Positions 1 through 14,121 of a stretch of DNA of 18,787 nucleotides are shown here, piece after piece. How positions within the stretch are numbered: position 1 is the first letter of the stretch; the number at the start of each line of letters is the position of its first letter. Where the stretch lies: assembly GCA_026706505.1 (NCBI GenBank), contig JAPOYQ010000356.1, forward strand, positions 1 through 18,787. The letters are read 5' to 3'. A program made the translations under genes and the position numbers. The notes below the pieces were generated by a model. It did not search any database. It worked only from the letters and a program-made list of their open reading frames with translations, and had not been told where the DNA came from. The DNA comes from Gemmatimonadota bacterium. Its GTDB lineage: Bacteria > Latescibacterota > UBA2968 > UBA8231.

Positions 1-965
1 ATGACTTGATCCTTGTACTTATCCTGCAACTGGCGGATAAACGCGCCAATCCGCTCGTTTTCCCGCTGGCGACGCAAGCTCGCGGCTGCCCGGCGGCGCG
101 CCTCGGCAAAGGGCTGGATCTGGCCGCCTTCCCGCCGCAGCACTCGGAACACCGCGTATCCGTCCATGCTTTCTAGCGGGCCGACGAGTGCGCCGACCTC
201 AGCGGCAAAGGCCGCTTTTACCAACTCGGGATAGCGCGGCTCGTACAGGCGCACTAGACGCATCTCCCAACCGTGCTCTCGCACCCCGTGCCCCTCGACG
301 CCAGCGTGCGAGCGCACGCCGGGCCGGTCGAGCAAGTCGGCGATGGGCGCGCCGGCCTCCCACTCGGCGCGCAAAGCCGCAGCGTCCTCTTCCTCAGCGG
401 TCCACAACTCGTGGACAATCACGGCCTCTTGGGTGCGGTAGCGGTCCTTGTGGTTCTCGTAATGCGCTCTGATCTCGTCCTCGCTGGGCGCGGCCCCGGC
501 CGTGGCCTGTTGGAAGAGCTGATTGAGGATCAGTGCCCGGCGCTGGTGCTCGTGCCACTCGACAAAGGCCGCCTCCTCGGTCCAGCCGCGCTTGCGCGCC
601 TCGGCCTCAAAGAGCCGCACCGGCAGCAACAAGCGCCCAATCCGCTCGGCGGCTTGGGCCTTGTCCTGCAATACGCCCTGTGCTCCAACCGCCTGCAGGC
701 TGCCCAAACCCTCGGCCACGCTGATCGTGCCGCCTTCGTACGCGTAGAAGGAATGATTCAACTCGTCCGTCGTCAGGGGCCGGTCCAAACTCTGGAGCAA
801 GATGGCCTCGCCCTCTGAATCTAGGCGCACATCGTAGCGGAGGCGGAGGCGTTCAAACTCCTCCTCTTCCTTCTCCCGCGTCCGTTCTTTGCGCAACCGC
901 TCGGCCACTTCCTCGCTGTAGTTGGCGAGCGCAGCCGGGCGATCCCCGATAAAGCTGAAGATCTG
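1..965 (-). pseudogene. C-terminal half of a SurA/PpiC-type peptidyl-prolyl isomerase, cut off from its start by an in-frame TAG; runs off the left edge
   Basis: I translated the minus strand by hand from the TAG at 966-968 to position 3. The frame stays open for 321 codons with a normal amino-acid mix, so it is the downstream part of the same protein as the ORF at 966-1616. It starts QIFSFIGDRPAAL, passes through a charged helix rich in Glu and Arg, and ends with a second parvulin-like segment. That segment has VIVHELWTAEEEDAAL, then a spaced glycine-rich stretch, then GPLESMDGYAVFRV and a basic helical tail. The first in-frame ATG is only at 263-261. A GTG at 908-906 has a purine-rich stretch too close to serve as a normal ribosome binding site. 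Independent initiation is therefore unlikely. I infer a nonsense-mutated gene, a read-through product or a sequencing error. The C-terminus lies outside the window. Confidence 0.75.
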
Positions 966-1616
966 CTAGCCACCGGCCCGCGCGACCGGCTCGGCGACCT
1001 GTCCAACGGGTAAACCCACAAAGACGGCGGACGGGATGGAGAACCGCCGCGCGGCTTGTGTGCGCCCGATCCAGCCGACCACGCCGTCGCCCTGCGCGGC
1101 GAAGAGGTCGTTGGCGGCAAAGCGCGCGGCCACTTCCTCAAAAGGCTGGCCCTCGCGCAGGTCGCTCCCGACCGCCTCTAGCTCCTCGCGGGTGCGCACC
1201 AAGATGCGGCTAAAGAGCCGCTCGCGGTCAAACCCCATCTCCGCGAAGGCGCGCTCGACATCTTCACCTGTGATCTCCACCTGCGGCACAATGACTTGGG
1301 CGCGGTAGCGCTCCACGAGGCGCTGTCGCACCATTTCGCGGAGCTGGTGCTCAACCGCCAAGCTGGTGCCGATCCCGAGCGAGCGAGCCTCGGTGAACAT
1401 CAGCTCCTCGTCGATCATCGACTGCAAGTGCTCCCGGTCGGCTGCGCGTCCTTCCTTGGGACTGCGCAACCCCGGTGGCAGGCGCTCGACAAAAGCCGCA
1501 AACTCCGCCTGCTCAATCTCCACCTCGCCGACCCGAGCGACGATGGTCTCATCCTCGCCGCACCCCATCAACAACAGAGCCAGTACACCACAAAACTTAC
1601 TCGATAAATAGCGCAT
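966..1616 (-). CDS. SurA/PpiC-like parvulin peptidyl-prolyl isomerase lipoprotein, N-terminal part ending at an in-frame amber codon
   Basis: This encodes 216 residues with a lipoprotein signal peptide (lipobox LMGC, Cys about 19). It continues with a helical SurA-N-like region (residues 25-115, including the helix around EHLQSMIDEELMFTEARSLG). A parvulin domain begins at LFSRILVRTREELEAVGSDL and contains GDGVVGWIGRT and FVGLPVGQVAEPV. Parvulins of this kind are periplasmic foldases or chaperones for outer-membrane and secreted proteins. The ORF stops inside the last strand of the parvulin domain, after ARAGG, where the family normally has an aromatic residue followed by a hydrophobic strand. 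That strand (QIFSF) is encoded directly after the TAG. The ATG at 1616 lies inside the 3' end of the upstream mutarotase-like gene (20-bp overlap), which implies translational coupling. As written the protein lacks its domain end and probably does not fold unless the stop is suppressed. Confidence 0.85.
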   Translation of the reverse strand: MRYLSSKFCGVLALLLMGCGEDETIVARVGEVEIEQAEFAAFVERLPPGLRSPKEGRAADREHLQSMIDEELMFTEARSLGIGTSLAVEHQLREMVRQRLVERYRAQVIVPQVEITGEDVERAFAEMGFDRERLFSRILVRTREELEAVGSDLREGQPFEEVAARFAANDLFAAQGDGVVGWIGRTQAARRFSIPSAVFVGLPVGQVAEPVARAGG

Positions 1617-2824: not shown

Positions 2825-4561
2825 ATGAGAAAATTTCTCCAAAAGACAAAACTCGCCGCCTGGGGCTTGCTCGGCGGCCTGGCGCTCGCCGCCTGTGGCT
2901 CCGACGAGGGGGGCATAAAGCACGTCCCCCGCAACCGCACTCTCATCCTCGGCCTGCCGCAGATGCGGGACTATGACTCGTTCAATCCCTTTATCGTCGG
3001 CACCCAATCCCCGGGCTTCGACTACCTGTTTGAGCCGCTCTACTTCTACAATGCGTACGTAGAAAAAGACCACGTCATACCCTGGATCGCCACAAGCCAC
3101 GAGTACAACGCAGACTACACGGAAGTGACGATCCACATTCGCAAAGGGGTGGCGTGGAGCGACGGGCGGCCTTGGACCGCCCACGATCTCAAGTTCACCG
3201 TTGACATGCTCAAGGCCCACGCCCCAGAGCTGGCCTTTTCCACCGACATGGACACTTGGGTCGCCGCAGTCGAAGTCCCGGATTCGCTGACGGCGCGGTT
3301 CGTGCTCAAAGCGCCCAACCCCCGCTTTGTATTCTCTTATTTTACCTACAACTTTGGCAACGGCATCCACATCGTGCCCAAGCACATCTGGGAGGGCGAG
3401 GATCCGACCTCGTTCAAAAACCTCGACTTGGCGCGCGGCCTGCCGGTCGTCAGCGGCCCTTATCGCTTGGCGCGCTCCGATCCCCAGCAGCGGCTCTGGG
3501 ATCTGCGCGAGGACTGGTGGGCCGCCCAAATCGGCTTCCAGCGCCTGCCGAGAGTTGAGCGCATCATCTACCTGCCCCAAGGCGACGAGAACAAGTGGGT
3601 TCAGCTCATCCTCGCCAACCAGATGGATCAGTGCATTGACTTGCGGCCCTCCAACATCAAAACCCTCCTCGACCAAAACCCCAACGTCACCACGTGGTCG
3701 GGCCGCCAACTGCCCTACGGCTACCGGGACTGGTGGCCGCCGGCCCTCGGCTTTAACAACCTAGAGCCGCCCTTCGACGATCCGGACATTCGCTGGGCCG
3801 TAAACCACGCCATCGACCGCGAACAACTCGTGGCCATCGGCTGGCAGGGAGCCGGCGAGTACACCCTTCTGCCGTTCCCCCACTTCCCGCCGCTGATGCA
3901 CTACATCGACCAAGTTCAGGATCTGTTAGAGAAGTATCCGGTGGGGCAACACGACCTAGCCCAGACCGCAGCCATTATGGAGAGCAAGGGCTGGACCCGC
4001 GATTCAGAGGGTCTGTGGAACAAAAATGGCGAGCGCCTGAGGATCCCGGTCGTCGTCTTTCCCTCTCTCTTCCAAGACTTCACGCCCGTGCTCGTCGAGC
4101 AACTGCGCCGCGCGGGTTTCGACGCCTCCTTCCGCATGTTCTCCGACGCCTATACCCGCATGACCCAAGGCACGGCCCGCGCCTTTGTCATGGGCAACGG
4201 TGGCTCAGTGCGCGACCCGTACTTCACCCTCCGGCTCTACCACAGCCGCTACGTCCAGCCCACCGGCACGGCCACCCCGTATTTCTGGCGCTGGCGCAAC
4301 GCGGATTTCGACCGCTTGGTCGATCAGATGGGCCAGACCGCGCCCGACGATCCGGCGCTCGTGCCGCTGTTTCGCCAAGCCCTTGAGATCTGGCTGGCCG
4401 AATTGCCGGCCATTCCCCTCCTCCAGTGGTTCCACCGCATCCCCCACAATCAGACCTATTGGAAAAATTGGCCCTCGGCCGAAAACCCCTACATGAACAG
4501 CGCTTATTGGGTGCGTTCGTTCTTGATCGTGCTGTTGGGATTGGAACCGACGCAGCCTTGA
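2825..4561 (+). CDS. ABC transporter substrate-binding lipoprotein, family 5 (oligopeptide/nickel/dipeptide type)
   Basis: This is a 578-residue lipoprotein if translated from the ATG at 2825. That start gives a short basic n-region (MRKFLQKTK), a hydrophobic stretch and the lipobox LAAC. An ATG five codons upstream (2810) is in frame but would put Glu in the n-region; neither has a strong Shine-Dalgarno. The body carries family-5 hallmarks: DSFNPFIVGTQSPGFDYLFEP near the N-terminus, HIRKGVAWSDGRPWTAHDLKFT, then DPDIRWAVNHAIDREQLVAIGW, and NADFDRLVDQMG near the end. Such proteins capture peptides, sugars or metal chelates at the membrane for an ABC importer. No permease or ATPase gene lies next to it; the next gene downstream is convergent. 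It is divergent from the mutarotase-like gene across about 67 bp. Family is confident, ligand unknown. Confidence 0.93.
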   Translation: MRKFLQKTKLAAWGLLGGLALAACGSDEGGIKHVPRNRTLILGLPQMRDYDSFNPFIVGTQSPGFDYLFEPLYFYNAYVEKDHVIPWIATSHEYNADYTEVTIHIRKGVAWSDGRPWTAHDLKFTVDMLKAHAPELAFSTDMDTWVAAVEVPDSLTARFVLKAPNPRFVFSYFTYNFGNGIHIVPKHIWEGEDPTSFKNLDLARGLPVVSGPYRLARSDPQQRLWDLREDWWAAQIGFQRLPRVERIIYLPQGDENKWVQLILANQMDQCIDLRPSNIKTLLDQNPNVTTWSGRQLPYGYRDWWPPALGFNNLEPPFDDPDIRWAVNHAIDREQLVAIGWQGAGEYTLLPFPHFPPLMHYIDQVQDLLEKYPVGQHDLAQTAAIMESKGWTRDSEGLWNKNGERLRIPVVVFPSLFQDFTPVLVEQLRRAGFDASFRMFSDAYTRMTQGTARAFVMGNGGSVRDPYFTLRLYHSRYVQPTGTATPYFWRWRNADFDRLVDQMGQTAPDDPALVPLFRQALEIWLAELPAIPLLQWFHRIPHNQTYWKNWPSAENPYMNSAYWVRSFLIVLLGLEPTQP

Positions 4562-4674
4562 ATGGATTAGAGAAAGAGCCTATCTGATGTGCAGGAGAGA
4601 CTTGCCGGTTAGGAGCAAAATGCTCTACCAGAGTTATAACAAAGGATTTTAATTGAGCCAGAATTAGCGGCACA

Positions 4675-5532
4675 CTATCCGCCCTCCGGCTTCGGCAAGT
4701 ACTGCTTCCATTTGTCCAGCACATAGTCCCGAAATCCCTCCACAGACTCGCTTCCGCATATCGGTGCAAGTTCTTGACCAATCTTTGTAAGGAGCACCTT
4801 CCCGATCCCAAGCCCGTTATCAGCATCCTTGGGCATCTCTAACGCAAGCGGCTCACCGTAGTAAAGTACGTCGAATTTCTTGGGCAAATTGCGCCGTACA
4901 ACGCCAGCAAGGCTATCGAATTGAACAAGGCCGATACTGTCAAGATGACTCAGGCTATTAAAGTTGATCCCGTGTTTGTTGTAGATTTCCGCCTGAACGT
5001 CAAACACCAACGGCACAACATCACCAATCATCCAGCCGAATCCGCAAAGCTTGATAAATAACTCCGCGTCAGCTTTGTCGAGGTTTGATAGAAAATTGAC
5101 GGTCCTCTTCGAGTAGGAGCCAGGGGCATTGGCCTCTCCAGCCAAAACGCGCGACCATAACTCCTGCATCTCATTGTCGGATACGATTCGGGATTTATCG
5201 AAGAAGTTGACGATCCAGTCGTTTTCCACGGAATCGGGAGAAGCCTCTTCGTCCAACTGAGGCAACGCCTTGGCAGTAATGTCTTCCATGTTCTTCTGAC
5301 GTTGCGCCTCCTCCTCAATCCACCGATGTACGGCTCGTCGATGCAGGTCGGTGATCTCAGTTTCAGATTGAGCCTTTATCATTGCAGCCTCAGCCTCAGC
5401 TTTGGCCATTCTCTTAACTTGGTACGGCGCAAAAAATCCGCCGACCGCATTCGATACTTTCTTGATCAGGGTATTAGCCGGTTTCGACAGGTTCCCCAAG
5501 TTTATGAGAGAATTAGAAGAGTTCTGTGACAT
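4675..5532 (-). CDS. DUF2806 family protein
   Basis: This is a 285-residue cytoplasmic protein. The first 70 residues are polar and helical (KRMAKAEAEAAMIKAQSETEITDLHRR), probably coiled. A predicted globular part follows, whose core reads IVSDNEMQELWSRVLAGEANAPGS, YSKRTVNFLSNLDKADAELF and then CGFGWMIGDVVPLV. I recognise this as the DUF2806 signature; no biochemical role is established for the family. It has no signal peptide and no clear membrane segment. It ends in TAG, showing that amber is an ordinary terminator here. It lies 56 bp downstream of the Phd-like gene in the same direction and could be the last gene of the island operon or have its own promoter. Its only Shine-Dalgarno candidate is a weak AGGG about eleven bases upstream. 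Codon use is less GC-biased than in the flanking genes. Confidence 0.8.
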   Translation of the reverse strand: MSQNSSNSLINLGNLSKPANTLIKKVSNAVGGFFAPYQVKRMAKAEAEAAMIKAQSETEITDLHRRAVHRWIEEEAQRQKNMEDITAKALPQLDEEASPDSVENDWIVNFFDKSRIVSDNEMQELWSRVLAGEANAPGSYSKRTVNFLSNLDKADAELFIKLCGFGWMIGDVVPLVFDVQAEIYNKHGINFNSLSHLDSIGLVQFDSLAGVVRRNLPKKFDVLYYGEPLALEMPKDADNGLGIGKVLLTKIGQELAPICGSESVEGFRDYVLDKWKQYLPKPEGG

Positions 5533-5588
5533 AGTGAATTAACCCTATAATCGAATTCTAGCTCAGATATTCGCTCTTGATCACGAAT

Positions 5589-5990
5589 TCACTCGGCGTG
5601 TTGCGATAGAAGGGCTCTCACTGAAGGGACCAACGCCTTGGGGATTTTCATCACTGTTTGCGTTGTGTCCTCCCAAACGGCCTCATCTTCCGCCACGGCC
5701 TCTTCCTCCGTTTGAGATTCGTAATGCTGAAGGAGACGTTGGACGCGTTCCTCGTCCCAATCATCCGGAAACCATTCGTCGATGGTCGGCGTATTGATGT
5801 CTTCGCGATAGACAACTTTGCCCTGAATCGCTCCGAACACCTCTTCCACAGTCTTTTTTTGTGCAATCGGCTGAATGCGCAAAACGGGGCGATTGTGATC
5901 TGTGACAATCCATTCTTCGCCGGATTCTTCAATCTCGCGAAAGATGCGAAGTATATTAGCTTTCAACTTACTCTTTGAAATAGAAGGCAT
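5589..5990 (-). CDS. Phd/YefM-type antitoxin with an extra C-terminal module
   Basis: This is a 133-residue acidic protein. Residues 1-45 match the Phd/YefM DNA-binding fold: SKSKLKANILRIFREIEESG, then EEWIVTDHNRPVLRIQPI. The linker VEEVFGAIQGKVVYREDI ending in an acidic DEW motif is typical of antitoxins of this type, where it contacts and neutralises the toxin. After about residue 75 comes a second segment, RVQRLLQHYESQTEEEAVAEDEA, then VMKIPKALVPSVRALLSQH. I recall this pattern from small stand-alone proteins in cyanobacteria-like genomes. The protein is thus longer than a standard Phd (about 80-90 residues). Its ATG lies six bases after the TAG of the DUF2442 gene. No classical Doc, RelE or VapC toxin follows it, so its partner is uncertain. 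Fusion status is inference. Confidence 0.75.
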   Translation of the reverse strand: MPSISKSKLKANILRIFREIEESGEEWIVTDHNRPVLRIQPIAQKKTVEEVFGAIQGKVVYREDINTPTIDEWFPDDWDEERVQRLLQHYESQTEEEAVAEDEAVWEDTTQTVMKIPKALVPSVRALLSQHAE

Positions 5991-5996
5991 TTTTTT

Positions 5997-6287
5997 CTAG
6001 TTCTTCCGAGGCTCTTGCTCCGGATTCATCCATGCAGGAAGAGGAGACCCTGTAGCCTCCGCATACAAGGTCTCCGGTGCTATCTCGATCTCGTTGCCCC
6101 ACGTCAGAATCCCAAGCTCTTTGTTGATAGCGAAGCTATGGAAAAACTCGAGATCCCTAAATCGCTCAAATACACCTCGCCTCTCCAAATACTTTGCGAA
6201 ATCAACGGTTCCGCGCTGGCCGTTATCGAACTCTAGCTCGATTAGGTGGTCACCTCGATAGATAGCAGAAACAACATCGTGTAGCAT
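5997..6287 (-). CDS. DUF2442 domain protein
   Basis: This 96-residue protein matches DUF2442 over nearly its whole length: MLHDVVSAIYRGDHLIELEF, then DFAKYLERRGVFERFRDLEF, then INKELGILTWGNEIEIAPE, ending TLYAEATGSPLPAWM. DUF2442 proteins are small and frequently found beside toxin-antitoxin genes, often with DUF4160 partners, and are suspected antitoxins or regulators. A well-spaced GGGAG six bases before the ATG supports the start. It lies 15 bp after the DUF5615 gene and 6 bp before the Phd-like gene, so co-transcription is likely. No DUF4160 gene is present in the window. Confidence 0.88.
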   Translation of the reverse strand: MLHDVVSAIYRGDHLIELEFDNGQRGTVDFAKYLERRGVFERFRDLEFFHSFAINKELGILTWGNEIEIAPETLYAEATGSPLPAWMNPEQEPRKN

Positions 6288-6302
6288 ACAGCACTCCCTA
6301 TC

Positions 6303-6668
6303 TCAATCAAGCTCTCCGGCTCGCGAGCGAACCCGTACCATTCCCGGCGAAATGACACTGAAAGCAGAGAGCAGTTCGTGGCCTCGGTCAGTAAACGCAG
6401 CCGATACAATCCCTGCCTTTGTTTCTGGAGACAAACCTGCCAAGCGAAAGAGTACGACGCCCGTGTGGATCTGTCCCATACGGAAAACGAGCTCGCCGAA
6501 GTCTTTATCTGCCGTAATCAGCAGGGCACTATTCTGATTGGCCCGATGTAGCACAGCCTCGTCATCAATGCTTGGATCCAACTCCGCAATGTATAGCACG
6601 GTGTGACCATCCTGCCGCAAGCGGTCAACGATGGATTTATCCACACTTTCGTCCGCCAGCAGGTTCAC
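6303..6668 (-). CDS. DUF5615 PIN-like toxin
   Basis: This 121-residue protein starts with GTG. It begins with the PIN-like acidic strand NLLADESVD (Asp6, Glu7), followed by IVDRLRQDGHTVLYIAEL, DPSIDDEAVLHRAN (Asp35/36) and LLITADKDFGELVFR (Asp54, Asp56). This is the spaced acidic set expected of the PIN-like nuclease fold in DUF5615. Members are predicted RNases and typically form a two-gene toxin-antitoxin pair with DUF433 proteins. The GTG start overlaps the stop of the upstream DUF433 gene by four bases (GTGA), indicating translational coupling as in many such pairs. Function as a toxin is inferred from family and pairing. Confidence 0.9.
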   Translation of the reverse strand: MNLLADESVDKSIVDRLRQDGHTVLYIAELDPSIDDEAVLHRANQNSALLITADKDFGELVFRMGQIHTGVVLFRLAGLSPETKAGIVSAAFTDRGHELLSAFSVISPGMVRVRSRAGELD

Positions 6669-6901
6669 GTACTCTGCTCAACAGTTGGATACACTACATC
6701 AGCTCGCAGAGCTTGAGCGGCGAAACTCAAGGCTGCCAGAACGCCTTCCCTAGTCAAACGAGGATGAGCCTCAAGGATCTGGTCGATTGTCTCTTCTGCG
6801 GAGAGTTTCTCCAGAATCAACTCAACGGTAATGCGCGTTCCCGCGACGACGGGTTTACCCATCATGACGGCGGGATCAGATTGAATGAGTTCAGTATCCA
6901 T
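6665..6901 (-). CDS. DUF433 family antitoxin
   Basis: This 78-residue protein contains the DUF433 core: DPAVMMGKPVVAGTRITVELI, then LEKLSAEETIDQILEAHPRL and a C-terminal helix. DUF433 proteins are small winged-helix-like DNA-binding proteins and act as cognate antitoxins or repressors of DUF5615 PIN-like toxins. A GGAG about eight bases upstream supports the ATG. It is the first gene of the leftward island operon, so autoregulation from the upstream 114-bp gap (6902-7015) is plausible. I could not pick out an operator there. Confidence 0.9.
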   Translation of the reverse strand: MDTELIQSDPAVMMGKPVVAGTRITVELILEKLSAEETIDQILEAHPRLTREGVLAALSFAAQALRADVVYPTVEQST

Positions 6902-7015
6902 GTTTCATCTCCGTCGGATTTGGTCTCATGGCAAACGCTATGCTGTAAGTGCTCCGAATACGTCCTCAATTTCCAATCATCTAGCCGAAACCGCAAATTC
7001 TCGCCCATAAATTCA

Positions 7016-8983
7016 TCATTTGATATACATCAGTGGCTGCCGGTACAGTTGGGAGCCGACGCGCAAACTCGCCCAATAGACCCCGGAGGCCACCGGACGC
7101 CCCTGATCGTTGCAGGCATCCCACCCGGCTAGGTAGCGACCCACCCCCCGGCCGCCGGTCAGTCGGCGCACCAATTGGCCATCGACCCCGTAAATAGCCA
7201 AGTCGTAATCCGCCTCAACCGGCAGGACGAAGGGAATTCGCGTGAAGCTGTTGAACGGATTGGGGTAATTGGCCAACAGAGCAGCCTCGTCAGGGATGGT
7301 TCGTTCCACCTCTTCCACGGCCGTGGGGACGACCACGCCGGGCAAATATCGGGACAGTGCCGCACCGCTGATGATGTGGGCTTCCCCCGCATTCTCGCGT
7401 CGATTGTCGGGCCCGTCACCGGCCATGCCGTTGGGGATGGCGTCCACCCGCCCGTCGCCATCCATATCGCCGCTGGCCCCCCAATAGGCCGAAAAATCAA
7501 TCGGATCGGGTGCTTGAATCCACACGACGGGTACTGCGGGGTCGGCCAAGTCAATCTCGTGCGGCAGATCAGGGCCGCCAGCCAACACCGCGAAACCGCC
7601 AGCGAAGCGCCGCTTGAGCGGCCCCTCGTCGCCGGGCACGCCGATAAAGAGGTCGTCGTACCCGTCGCCGTGGATATCGCCGGCAGCTACGGCGTCGCCA
7701 GTAATGGCATCGGGGCGGGCACCATAGATAACAGTAATGTCGGTCGGCGGCGCAGCCATATCCAGCCGCTGTCCGCGCCGCTGGGGACCGCCATATACCA
7801 CGTACACCTCGCCGGCGTCGATGCGGCTATTGCCCAGACCGTCGGCCCGGTACGCGCCAATGAATAGGTCTTGGATGCCGTTGCCGTCGATATCGGCCAA
7901 GACGATTTCCTCGCCCAGCCGGTCGGGCGAATTCCCGCCGCCATCGGCACCGTAAATGACAGTCAGATCGGCGGGTGGATTCCCGGCTAAATCAATGGCC
8001 GCGCGCCGCTGCGGACCGCCGTACACCACGTACATTTCCCCGGCGTTTTCGCGCTGGTTTTCGGGGCCATCCCCAGCGCCGCCGGTGCGATGGTACGCAT
8101 TGCGCAAGGTGCCGAAAGCCGCCGCGCCAATGGCGATGTCGTCGTACCCGTCGCCGTCATAGTCGCCAGCGACCACGGTCGAACCAGCGTGGTCTAGGGC
8201 ATCGATGCCGTAGATGATACTCAAGGGGTGTTCCACAGCCGCCAGATCGATAGTAGCGCCCGAATCTAGCGGTCCGTAGAGGACGTACACCCGTCCCGCC
8301 TCAACAGCTCCCGCCGCCCCCGAGGCCCGGTCGGCACCCACCACCACATCTCGGTGGCCATCGCCGTCGAAATCCCCGGCGGTCATCCACACCCCCAAGC
8401 GGTCGTCGCGTTCAGCGCCGATAACGGTAATCAACCCCTCCGGCCAAGGTCGTTGCGCCAAATCCAAGCGCCTCCCTGCGGCCCGCAACCGAGCGATGAG
8501 TTCAGCCGAAAAAATATAGAGCTTGCCGGCGTTGGAGCGATCGGGGGCATCGGCGTAAAAAGCGCCCACCAAAAGATCGGCGCGCCCGTCGCCCATGAGG
8601 TCGGCCACATGGGTTTTGATACCGAAAAGGTCGCGCCGGGCCTCGCCATATAGAGTGACCACATCACCGAAGTCGGCGGCCAAATCCAAGCCACCCCCCG
8701 AAGGTATGGTGTTGAAGCAAATGGCCACTTCGCCGGCATTGGAGCGATCATTGGCGGGACCATCGCCAGCCATGGCCGAAATCACCAGATCGTCGTGCCC
8801 ATCCCCATCAATATCACCGGCGGTAATAGGAGTGCCGAATTCGGCATCATTGACGTCGGGGTTGTACACTGTGAATTGGCCCGTCTGAGCAGTATCGGCT
8901 AGATCCCACACGTGGACTATTTGGGCCGAAACCGGGATGGCTAGACAGCACAGAACCGACAACAGGATGGCCGCGTATTTCAT
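7016..8983 (-). CDS. secreted seven-bladed FG-GAP (integrin-alpha-like) beta-propeller with a FlgD-like/T9SS-type C-terminal tail
   Basis: This 655-residue protein has a Sec signal peptide (cut near PVSA|Q, residue 20). I count seven FG-GAP calcium-loop repeats: GDIDGDGHDDL (about 57), ADLMGDGRADL (128), GDFDGDGHRDV (204), GDYDGDGYDDI (274), ADIDGNGIQDL (364), GDIHGDGYDDL (436) and GDMDGDGRVDA (506). They are spaced 70-90 residues apart, which is exactly one propeller. Between them recurs a strand such as NAGEVYVVYGGPQRR. The C-terminal 85 residues (LLANYPNPFNSFTRI..., IYGVDGQLVRRL..., GRPVASGVYWASL) match the FlgD-like Ig/type IX sorting-type domain common in FCB-group secreted proteins. It is probably exported to the surface or medium, a calcium-dependent binding module. 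GGAG lies upstream of the ATG, and the gene follows the membrane-protein gene by 28 bp, so it may be the last gene of the phosphodiesterase operon. Confidence 0.9.
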   Translation of the reverse strand: MKYAAILLSVLCCLAIPVSAQIVHVWDLADTAQTGQFTVYNPDVNDAEFGTPITAGDIDGDGHDDLVISAMAGDGPANDRSNAGEVAICFNTIPSGGGLDLAADFGDVVTLYGEARRDLFGIKTHVADLMGDGRADLLVGAFYADAPDRSNAGKLYIFSAELIARLRAAGRRLDLAQRPWPEGLITVIGAERDDRLGVWMTAGDFDGDGHRDVVVGADRASGAAGAVEAGRVYVLYGPLDSGATIDLAAVEHPLSIIYGIDALDHAGSTVVAGDYDGDGYDDIAIGAAAFGTLRNAYHRTGGAGDGPENQRENAGEMYVVYGGPQRRAAIDLAGNPPADLTVIYGADGGGNSPDRLGEEIVLADIDGNGIQDLFIGAYRADGLGNSRIDAGEVYVVYGGPQRRGQRLDMAAPPTDITVIYGARPDAITGDAVAAGDIHGDGYDDLFIGVPGDEGPLKRRFAGGFAVLAGGPDLPHEIDLADPAVPVVWIQAPDPIDFSAYWGASGDMDGDGRVDAIPNGMAGDGPDNRRENAGEAHIISGAALSRYLPGVVVPTAVEEVERTIPDEAALLANYPNPFNSFTRIPFVLPVEADYDLAIYGVDGQLVRRLTGGRGVGRYLAGWDACNDQGRPVASGVYWASLRVGSQLYRQPLMYIK

Positions 8984-10058: not shown

Positions 10059-12035
10059 TTAATCCTCCCAAATCGAATGTCCCGACATGGCGGCCGGCGG
10101 GGCCACACCGTAGTGCGCTAGGATACTCACCGGAATGTCCCGCAGATGGTGTGGGATGGGCTTCAGCGGTTTATTGCTCAGGAGAACGCCGGGCACCTCT
10201 TCGGCCGCCATGCAGTGATCCCCACTCCAAGGAGAGAGATTATCCTGCAAAACCGCACTCTCCAATTGGCCAATGGCCGTGGCGCCCGAAGCGCGATAGC
10301 CTCTCGCATAGCCGATGATCAAGTCGGGTGCCAAGTCCGAATCGGCCCCAGAGTCCGGGCGATAGACTTTTTTTACCACCTGCCGACCGTCGGCCGGGTC
10401 CCGCAAGGCGAGCAGCTTCTGGCTCAGTTCGCTGAGCAAACTTTCCCGAGCCTCGGGCCGCACGGCCCCATGCTGTTCGCGGCCCTTGAGATTGATGTAC
10501 AGGGCATTGAGCCCCAAGCCATAGGCCCGAGTCTGTTCCCAGCGCATGTGGCCCTCGTTGAGGATCTGGGCTTGGTCCAGCGACACTTGGGGAGCCAAGG
10601 CGAGATAGCCCTCCCGCACCAGCCAAGAATTGAGATTGAAAGAGCGCTCGTACGCGGCAAAACCGTGGTCCGAAAGGACGATGATATCCGCGTCTGCCCC
10701 CAGCATGGCGACGGCCTCGCCCAGCAAATCGTCCATGGCGACGTACTGATCGGCAATGGCCTGTTGGTACGGAGCGAATTCCGCTCGGTGGCCCGGGTGA
10801 TCGGGCGCCCAAGCGCGCCAGAGCATGTGGCAGACCTGATCGAGACTGTGGACGTAAAAAAAGAGCACGCCGGCCGCAAAGCGTCCCAACTCATAGCGCA
10901 GTTGGCGGCGGCGTTCTTCAAAGGCCAAGGCGTCCTGGCGCAAAAATTCTCCGTAGTCAAAAACACCTGCTTCGAGGGCTTTGGTATCGTCGGGCATGCC
11001 TTGGGTATAGTGTGGGCCAAGAGCTTGGTGCAATTCTTCGCTGGCCTCTGGAGGGGAGGAAATGGGCATGGCTGGATTGCCGGGATGAATATTGACCGGC
11101 GTCAGGTAGAGTTGCATAGAGGGAGCTGCGGCCCGCAGATAAAAGCGGGCAATGCCCTGCAGGCGTTCCAAGCTGTAGGGCTTGCGCCCGTAGTCTATGG
11201 TAATCCACGGACTCCATTCGCCGGACTGGAGGACCAAGCGCTGTTGGCCGAGGACAATTTCGGCGATCCGGTGCTGTCGATCTAGGTAAATCGCAAAATG
11301 GGTCTGCATCGGCTTTTCGTCTAGCATCGGACCGTGAATGGGCAGTTGCGCCCAACCGCTTTCCAACTGGACGCCGATTATTTTGCCGCCGGGAACGACC
11401 AATTCTCCCCCAGTCACTAGACTGGTGCCCCCGCCTTCGAGGTGCGCCGGCACAGTGTACGGCCCCTCGGTGTAATAGCCACAAGTTCCGTAGGTCCCCA
11501 ACATATCCGGCGTACCCATGCCCGAGAAAGCGCGCACGGCGCAGGGAGAGAAAAACGGCAGCCCCCCAAAATTCTCCGATGACCGAGAGGGAGGGAAATT
11601 GGCTGGCACTTTGAAAATGGTCGTGGGGATACCGCGTTCGGCGAGGATTTCCCAAAAGGGCCGACCCCGGCGCTGCAACGCTAGCTGGCCGGATTCCCCT
11701 CGGCGCGCGGTGGACAAAAAGGGAGTCAGAGAGGCTGGGTCGCGATGGACAAAGTCGAAAATGCCGTGATCCTGTGGATCCAAGCCGGTAATAAAGCTCG
11801 ACCACGCCACCGGACTCTGCGGCGGCGCACTAGTTTGCAAGGGTGCAAAACCCCCGCGCCGAGCCAGGGCCTCAAAGTGTGGCATCCGGCCCTCGGTCAT
11901 CAACGTCCGCAGAATCTGCGGATCCATGCCGTCGATGCCCAGCACCAGCAGGCGATCCGACGGAGGGCCAGAGCGACAGCCCCAAGCCCAAGACAGGAGG
12001 CCGATCAGGACGATGGCAATAGCGGCGTTAGGCAT
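10059..12035 (-). CDS. alkaline-phosphatase-superfamily phosphodiesterase/nucleotide-pyrophosphatase-like lipoprotein
   Basis: I chose the ATG at 12035 (658 residues). It overlaps the upstream gene by eight bases and starts a lipoprotein signal ending WAWGC (Cys20); the longer in-frame start adds only a non-signal leader. Superfamily residues are visible: LVLGIDGMDPQIL (metal Asp about 35), QSPVAWSSFITGLDPQDHGI (nucleophile position occupied by Ser about 74), then HSLDQVCHMLW (Asp and His near 399 and 403), IIVLSDHGF (Asp-His near 456), and WSGDH near the C-terminus (last His ligand). Enzymes of this type hydrolyse or transfer phosphoryl or phosphodiester groups using two metals. It is a paralogue of the next gene to the right and probably acts in the periplasm, anchored to a membrane by lipid. 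Substrate unknown. Confidence 0.9.
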   Translation of the reverse strand: MPNAAIAIVLIGLLSWAWGCRSGPPSDRLLVLGIDGMDPQILRTLMTEGRMPHFEALARRGGFAPLQTSAPPQSPVAWSSFITGLDPQDHGIFDFVHRDPASLTPFLSTARRGESGQLALQRRGRPFWEILAERGIPTTIFKVPANFPPSRSSENFGGLPFFSPCAVRAFSGMGTPDMLGTYGTCGYYTEGPYTVPAHLEGGGTSLVTGGELVVPGGKIIGVQLESGWAQLPIHGPMLDEKPMQTHFAIYLDRQHRIAEIVLGQQRLVLQSGEWSPWITIDYGRKPYSLERLQGIARFYLRAAAPSMQLYLTPVNIHPGNPAMPISSPPEASEELHQALGPHYTQGMPDDTKALEAGVFDYGEFLRQDALAFEERRRQLRYELGRFAAGVLFFYVHSLDQVCHMLWRAWAPDHPGHRAEFAPYQQAIADQYVAMDDLLGEAVAMLGADADIIVLSDHGFAAYERSFNLNSWLVREGYLALAPQVSLDQAQILNEGHMRWEQTRAYGLGLNALYINLKGREQHGAVRPEARESLLSELSQKLLALRDPADGRQVVKKVYRPDSGADSDLAPDLIIGYARGYRASGATAIGQLESAVLQDNLSPWSGDHCMAAEEVPGVLLSNKPLKPIPHHLRDIPVSILAHYGVAPPAAMSGHSIWED

Positions 12036-14121
12036 TGGACCCAGCGGCCGGGGCGAACACATCTCGACCCTGCATGTAGGATGGCGACTCGATGCCAAAG
12101 AGACCCAGAATGGAAGGAGGGATATCGAGCAAGTGGGGATTGCGAATGCCTATTTTGCGGTTGCAGAAAAACACGCCGGGCACCAGCCGCGGATCCACGC
12201 AGTGGTCGCCGCTCCAAGGCCGGGTATTGGTCTCAAAGACGGCCTCGGTCACTTGGCCGCTGGCCCCGCTCCAAGAAGCGCGGTATCCGGTATTGTACCC
12301 AATGAGCAGATCCGGGCCATCGTCCGTATAAGGACCGCTAAAAGAAGCCTCCGTGTCCCAAGCCTTGTTGATGGCCGTCTCGCCCGTCTCCTGGTCCACC
12401 AAACCGGTGAGGCGGGAGCACAGTTCGGCCTTGAGTTGGCGCAATTCCGTCCCAGGGGCGACAATCCCACTAACTTCGCGGCCCCTAAGATTGATGAATA
12501 GGCCGGTGAGGCCCAGGGCAAAAGCCCGGGTGCGGCTCCAATCGACTTGGGCCAGCCACTCCTCGCTTTGGGTGCAGCCCTCGTGCAAACACAGGTACCC
12601 ATTTTGCCACAGCCACGTATTGAGGTTGACGCCGCGTTTAAAGGTGCAAAAGCCGTGGTCGGAAATAACCATCAACACGGTCTTAGCGCAGTCGATCTTT
12701 TCTAGCGTGCGGCCCACTAGGTCGTCCATGCGCGCGTACATATCGGGAATGGTATTGGCCAAGCCGTTGACTTCCCGCCCTTGGTTAGCCGGATGATCGG
12801 GATCTAGGGTGCGGAAAAACATGTGCTGGATACGGTCGGGGCTGTCAAAGACGCAGGCCGCGAGGCCCTTGGGGGTTTTGTCGAGCGCGTGGAAAAACAT
12901 GGCCTGCCGCTCGTCGTCGAGTAAGTAGGTCTGGTCGAGAAAAGCCTGCTCGTCAATTAAATCGGCATTAAGTGCATCGGTGTCTTCCGCCAAGCCCACT
13001 GTGGCGAACTTGCCCAAGCGTCGAGCGAGGTAGGGGGCATAGGACGGGGGATGGGAAAGGGGCAGGTGGGGATGAGTAGGGTCTATTTGAATGGGGGTAA
13101 CATACAGTCTGAGCGGTTCGGCTTCAATCAGGTAGAAGCGGCACAGGCCGCGCACTCGGACCCCAGGGCCAGCGGCAAAGGCGAGCGTTATCCAGGGAGA
13201 ATAGACCCGCTTTTGCAGGACTATTTTTTCGCCTCCGATCGCCAGCGTGGCCGACTCAGCGGCCGGGTCTATGACCAGATCCATGTCGGCTGTTAGTCTT
13301 TTGCCGTCCGGACGCAGCGGGTTGGCGGGACCGGGGATACTAGTGCTGACTCTGCCGCTCTCGAGTTCGAGGCGAATGCAGCGACCCACAGAGGTGTCTT
13401 GAGGTCCGGGTCCGCTAAAAAAATAGGTACACTCTCCTTGAGTACCGCGCAGATCTGGCGCGCTCATGCCCGCGAGTAGAAGCCCCGCGAATTTTTCCGG
13501 AGGGAAACTGATGGGCACCCGGACAATGGAACTGGAGACGTGGTTGTCGCCCAGGACCTTCCAAAAAGACTGGCTCCGGCGCAAATTGCGCACCTGCGCT
13601 TTGCCCAAGGGTAGGCGGTACGGACCGAGCCTCAGGCTTCGGCGCGAGGCGCTGATCCGAGCCGAAGACAGCACGGGCTGGTACGTATGGGGATCGCGGG
13701 TGATAAAGTCGTAGATGCGGTGCCTAGAAGCGTCCACCCCCGTGGCAAAAGCCGACCAAGCCGCTGGTGTAATGGCGGGCAAGGTAGTCTGCAAAGGACG
13801 AAAGGTCCCCTGCTCGGCCAGCTTTTTAAACGCGGGCAGCCGGCCTTCCTCCATCCAGCGGGCCACTAGCTGCGGGTCGAGGCCATCAAGGCCGATGACC
13901 ACCACGCGCTCGGCGCTTGCTTGGGCTGCAATTTTTTTGCCGCGACGCCAGTTAATCAGCAAGCGGACTGGCAGGACCAGGATGGCAAGCGCGGCGAGAA
14001 CGAGGGCGGCGAGGGTCCAGAAACCGCTGGCTAGAACAAAACCGGCACCGGGACCGACATAGGCGTCGGCCCGTTGGACAAAGAGGCAAGTGCCGCTCCA
14101 AATAAAGAAGGATTTGCTCAC
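12028..14121 (-). CDS. membrane-anchored alkaline-phosphatase-superfamily phosphodiesterase/nucleotide-pyrophosphatase-like protein
   Basis: This 697-residue protein is read from a GTG at 14121; no good Shine-Dalgarno is seen, so the start is moderately sure. The N-terminal part contains AYVGPGAG (residues 20-27), a motif I recall from anchored members of this group, then one strong membrane helix (about 33-57) followed by basic residues. The catalytic domain shows VVVIGLDGLDP (metal Asp79), PAITPAAWSAFATG (nucleophile Thr118), FDSPDRIQHMFF (Asp429, His433), VLMVISDHGF (Asp488, His489) and RPWSGDHC (His640). All core ligands of the superfamily are present, so it should be active. A phosphodiester in the envelope (lipid headgroup, glycan phosphate or nucleotide) is the likely substrate class. 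It is the first gene of the operon, with a 74-bp gap to the palindromic repeat upstream. Confidence 0.9.
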   Translation of the reverse strand: MSKSFFIWSGTCLFVQRADAYVGPGAGFVLASGFWTLAALVLAALAILVLPVRLLINWRRGKKIAAQASAERVVVIGLDGLDPQLVARWMEEGRLPAFKKLAEQGTFRPLQTTLPAITPAAWSAFATGVDASRHRIYDFITRDPHTYQPVLSSARISASRRSLRLGPYRLPLGKAQVRNLRRSQSFWKVLGDNHVSSSIVRVPISFPPEKFAGLLLAGMSAPDLRGTQGECTYFFSGPGPQDTSVGRCIRLELESGRVSTSIPGPANPLRPDGKRLTADMDLVIDPAAESATLAIGGEKIVLQKRVYSPWITLAFAAGPGVRVRGLCRFYLIEAEPLRLYVTPIQIDPTHPHLPLSHPPSYAPYLARRLGKFATVGLAEDTDALNADLIDEQAFLDQTYLLDDERQAMFFHALDKTPKGLAACVFDSPDRIQHMFFRTLDPDHPANQGREVNGLANTIPDMYARMDDLVGRTLEKIDCAKTVLMVISDHGFCTFKRGVNLNTWLWQNGYLCLHEGCTQSEEWLAQVDWSRTRAFALGLTGLFINLRGREVSGIVAPGTELRQLKAELCSRLTGLVDQETGETAINKAWDTEASFSGPYTDDGPDLLIGYNTGYRASWSGASGQVTEAVFETNTRPWSGDHCVDPRLVPGVFFCNRKIGIRNPHLLDIPPSILGLFGIESPSYMQGRDVFAPAAGSNA

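Follow-up and report, generated by a model that had tools for sequence, protein, structure and literature searches.

A lone in-frame TAG in a two-domain parvulin foldase gene of a Latescibacterota assembly: local sequence error or young null allele?

What does a single stop codon mean in the middle of a gene that otherwise stays open? The question is raised by a gene for a parvulin (PPIase) foldase that has two domains and a lipoprotein-like start; the gene lies on the minus strand at 3..1616 of an 18,787-nucleotide contig (JAPOYQ010000356.1, assembly GCA_026706505.1) recorded as Gemmatimonadota bacterium and placed by GTDB in the Latescibacterota. We call this whole stretch of DNA the window. 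One in-frame TAG interrupts the gene, the window edge cuts it as well, and a preliminary description of the sequence had offered three options for the stop: a very recent lesion, a sequencing error or read-through. Single-nonsense pseudogenes and null alleles occur in bacterial genomes, and a CAG after the UAG fits part of a known leaky context, UAG-CAR-YYA, although the last three bases do not fit here.

Results

The TAG is codon 217 of the frame (966..968, minus strand) and stands in the context GGC TAG CAG, a junction that was confirmed on the minus strand. Upstream of it an ORF of 216 codons begins with ATG at position 1616, and past it the frame remains open for 321 codons up to the window edge with no second stop. 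That a single TAG cuts a parvulin gene with 321 further open codons was borne out by translation and by full-length alignment to P0002, the best homologue, which is intact: the read-through translation aligned with it over 538 residues with 499 of 538 identical (93%). Third-position G+C is 0.80 before the TAG and 0.81 past it, and seven whole orthologues terminate a few codons beyond the position of the window edge. Since the 321-codon frame matches intact orthologues residue by residue, its openness is not due to chance, and on sequence comparison the parts on either side of the TAG are one gene with one predicted protein.

Pfam searches of the part before the TAG gave weak matches to SurA_N_3 and Rotamase (6e-4, just short of its cut-off), both under their own cut-offs, while the part past the TAG matched Rotamase_2 at 2e-19; both PPIase domains, of the PPIC type, are present in full-length orthologues. 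The N-terminus is hydrophobic and contains LLLMGC, a candidate export signal and lipobox as judged by eye in the translation. The PrsA chains 4wo7 and 1zk6 align with the first domain of P0002 across the stop position, so that the cut falls towards the end of the first PPIase domain. The protein thus resembles PrsA/SurA-type parvulin foldases (PF00639, PF13145) in its PPIase domains and signal-like N-terminus. It differs from them in that the relatives' protein has a pair of PPIase domains within about 542 residues and belongs to a large set of proteins like it in the clade, and in that the window copy has the TAG.

A genome scan identified the orthologue at eight loci, seven with the whole gene and one beginning at a contig end. 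All are MAG records, five titled as Latescibacteria/Latescibacterota and three as Gemmatimonadota/Gemmatimonadetes. A DNA search of the family found the orthologue in 8 of 25 genomes, identical to the eight loci of the scan, and a ninth genome gave a weak 83-base match only. The seven whole orthologues are intact and free of internal stops; none has TAG at codon 217, and all carry one identical tyrosine codon there, a single base away from TAG. Among 77 database homologues the position is tyrosine in 24, including the closest ones, and tryptophan in 49; the remaining four comprise one valine, one phenylalanine, P0039, which is out of frame there, and P0035, which does not reach the position. 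With Tyr or Trp in 73 of 77, the earlier expectation of an aromatic residue at the stop held, as did the view that the TAG could arise by one change.

In this clade TAG serves as an ordinary stop codon. It terminates 3 of the 16 other window ORFs taken as genes, and the natural stop of the foldase gene itself in the seven loci is TAG in four, TAA in two and TGA in one. Release factor 1 (RF1) scored above the family cut-off in all eight relative genomes; a second, weaker match of the same search has one internal TGA in seven of the eight, which we presume corresponds to the known frameshift site of release factor 2. Amber recoding, looked for in the relatives and in the window ORFs, was not found: TAG is used as a stop and the relatives keep RF1, in line with the preliminary argument that true TAG stops of neighbouring genes speak against a recoded genome. 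A suppressor tRNA was sought within the window, which contains no tRNA.

To follow selection on the gene we compared dN/dS and private changes of the window with those of five relatives (L001-L005). In all, 33 window-only changes were found in the foldase gene, and four of them, all replacements and three of them transversions, are bunched at codons 213, 217 (the stop), 221 and 224 (945..980, minus strand). Downstream of this bunch dN/dS of the window was 0.099, compared with 0.089-0.125 in the relatives, and upstream it was 0.169, compared with 0.140-0.170. Outside codons 213-224 there are 8 replacement and 21 silent window-only changes; for the five relatives the totals over the whole gene are 42 and 113 (odds ratio 1.02, p = 1). 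A test for pseudogene decay thus detected no relaxed selection past the TAG relative to the five relatives, and from these substitution counts purifying selection looks normal on both sides of the stop.

The bunch itself is unusual. Inside codons 213-224 there are four replacements, the stop counted, and no silent change (Fisher p = 0.012), and 3 of the 4 changes inside are transversions, compared with 3 of the 29 outside (p = 0.014); random placement put four replacements in 12 codons in 1.1% of trials. These tests were run after the bunch had been noticed and are indicative only. All four changes strike residues that are identical in the seven loci. Gene conversion from a paralogue was considered and set aside, as the 33-base variant stretch had no match at three or fewer mismatches in 25 genomes; the reach of this search is short, since even the orthologues exceed three mismatches and it could reveal only a near-identical donor. 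No hairpin that might cause a systematic sequencing fault was found: z was 1.37 and 0.08 for the two strands of the window and, for comparison, -1.49 and 0.69 in one relative. Bunched differences were also seen in the SBP_bac_5 (solute-binding) gene of the window, where, in tracts at about 3460-3495 and 3976-4020, 7-8 sites within 36 bases set the window apart from the aligned relatives; these sites mix silent and replacement changes and look like a diverged allele or recombination. Bunching by itself is therefore no proof of error.

Broken forms of the gene are common in the protein database. Within the same orthologue group we counted 13 shortened or broken clusters (P0031, P0033, P0035, P0038, P0039, P0059, P0079, P0080, P0082, P0084, P0085, P0086 and P0091) against 21 full-length ones. 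Ten of the 13 continue with residues that no longer match, as would follow a frame change, and three only start late. The places of the breaks differ, and two lie within five residues of the window stop: in P0084 the frame is lost after residue 218 and in P0079 after residue 221. These clusters may reflect decay or assembly faults. The idea that a sister strain has the stop in common with the window, through P0035, is unlikely, as none of the 14 N-terminal matches ends at residue 216; a scan of viral contigs for P0035 found no relative.

The relative genomes (G001-G008) each contain 29-38 matches to the foldase, and PF13145 matches number 46-64 per genome in these eight as against 6-33 in the other 17 family genomes examined. 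With so many parvulin matches per genome the loss of one copy might be buffered. A real break might thus be cushioned by similar parvulins, though the orthologue itself is kept in all eight relative genomes (one copy cut by a contig end). The part of the literature that our search covered held nothing on the large parvulin set of this clade, a by-product of the analysis that we consider more interesting than the stop codon.

Discussion

Could the second half of the protein still be made? If some ribosomes read through the UAG, the cell would produce the full-length protein next to the 216-residue one, and the open, constrained frame past the stop as well as the CAG that follows the UAG are what such a reading would predict. 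Against it, the stop is present in none of the seven loci, none of the 14 database matches to the 216-residue piece terminates at residue 216, RF1 passes the cut-off throughout the relatives, and TAG naturally ends genes both in the window and in four of the seven foldase loci, which together make read-through very improbable. As little credit can be given to the related idea that a new amber codon is tolerated via read-through and turns one gene into a source of both a one-domain and a two-domain foldase. Separate translation of the second half from a GTG at 906..908 (minus strand; codon 237, the first listed start of the downstream ORF) finds some support in P0035, a protein of 309 residues, 96% identical over 302, that starts at the residue aligned with codon 237. 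Yet the four window-only residues of that stretch (codons 267, 289, 355 and 388) are all missing from P0035, the GTG lacks a well-spaced ribosome-binding site by eye, and its product would be without the N-terminal signal-like stretch. A split gene was further expected to show up as orthologues that end at the stop and are followed by a separately started second gene; instead we found a single gene in all seven loci, and the chance that the window gene is truly split is in our view minimal. Nothing that we found makes read-through, recoding or a split gene a better reading than a sequence error or a young null allele.

Of the three options first offered, the recent lesion and the sequencing error are therefore the ones that survive, given seven intact orthologues, normal selection and a stop seen in the window alone; read-through gained no support. 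We infer with about an even chance of being right that the TAG is a local error, made in base calling or in assembly, and that the organism's own gene is intact. Several positions within some 36 bases would have been misread, and one of the misreadings would have turned the tyrosine codon into TAG. The bunch leans this way, as replacement-only, transversion-rich changes favour error over slow decay. It also speaks for an error that the TAG is the sole break among the nine window genes for which a comparison with the G002 chromosome was possible (for one gene only partially). Against it, the other eight are unbroken, and a poor assembly might be expected to show breaks there. The mixed change bunches of the solute-binding gene, which resemble a diverged allele, and the failure to find a hairpin that would account for a sequencing fault likewise count against an error, and the departure of P0084 and P0079 from the frame near the same place could reflect either a real or a shared technical weak spot.

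Somewhat short of an even chance is what we would grant to a real, very young nonsense allele, whose 216-residue product would break off towards the end of the first PPIase domain, be without the second altogether and probably be non-functional. Such a loss would be bearable if this genome, like those of the relatives, encodes many further parvulins built alike. This possibility is supported by the single base that separates the TAG from the relatives' tyrosine codon, by the number of foldase and PF13145 matches in the eight relative genomes, by the frequency of broken or shortened clusters in the orthologue group and by the position of the cut inside a domain, across which the PrsA structures align. 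On the other side, selection past the stop is unrelaxed and an older pseudogene would scatter its damage, which here is confined in its excess to 12 codons; moreover none of the 13 broken clusters is shown with an in-frame stop, and assembly faults or contig ends may account for them. Pseudogenes and null alleles with a single nonsense codon in other bacteria likewise combine one in-frame stop, no frameshift and intact orthologues. The window differs from them in that its excess changes are packed in 12 codons with no decay elsewhere, a pattern that fits a sequence error too.

Whether error or young null allele, the feature is of an ordinary kind. It does carry a caution: a lone stop in an environmental assembly that is absent from close relatives and sits amid odd changes should be suspected first of being an error or a young null allele, and both should be considered ahead of recoding or read-through.

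Other features of the window

A variable island at 4610-7017 contains a DUF2806 gene, a weak match to a Phd-like antitoxin, a DUF2442 gene and a DUF5615/DUF433 pair, which looks like a toxin-antitoxin module. The island is absent in G005, where its two flanks adjoin, with a 27-base overlap between their alignments to L053, and it is matched only in part in other relatives. Third-position G+C is 0.49-0.59 in the island ORFs and 0.62-0.81 in the other ORFs of the window. PADLOC gave a weak AbiEi match as its only result on the window. At 10059-14121 there are two adjacent type I phosphodiesterase/nucleotide pyrophosphatase genes (PF01663), with an overlap of 71 bases between their listed ORFs.
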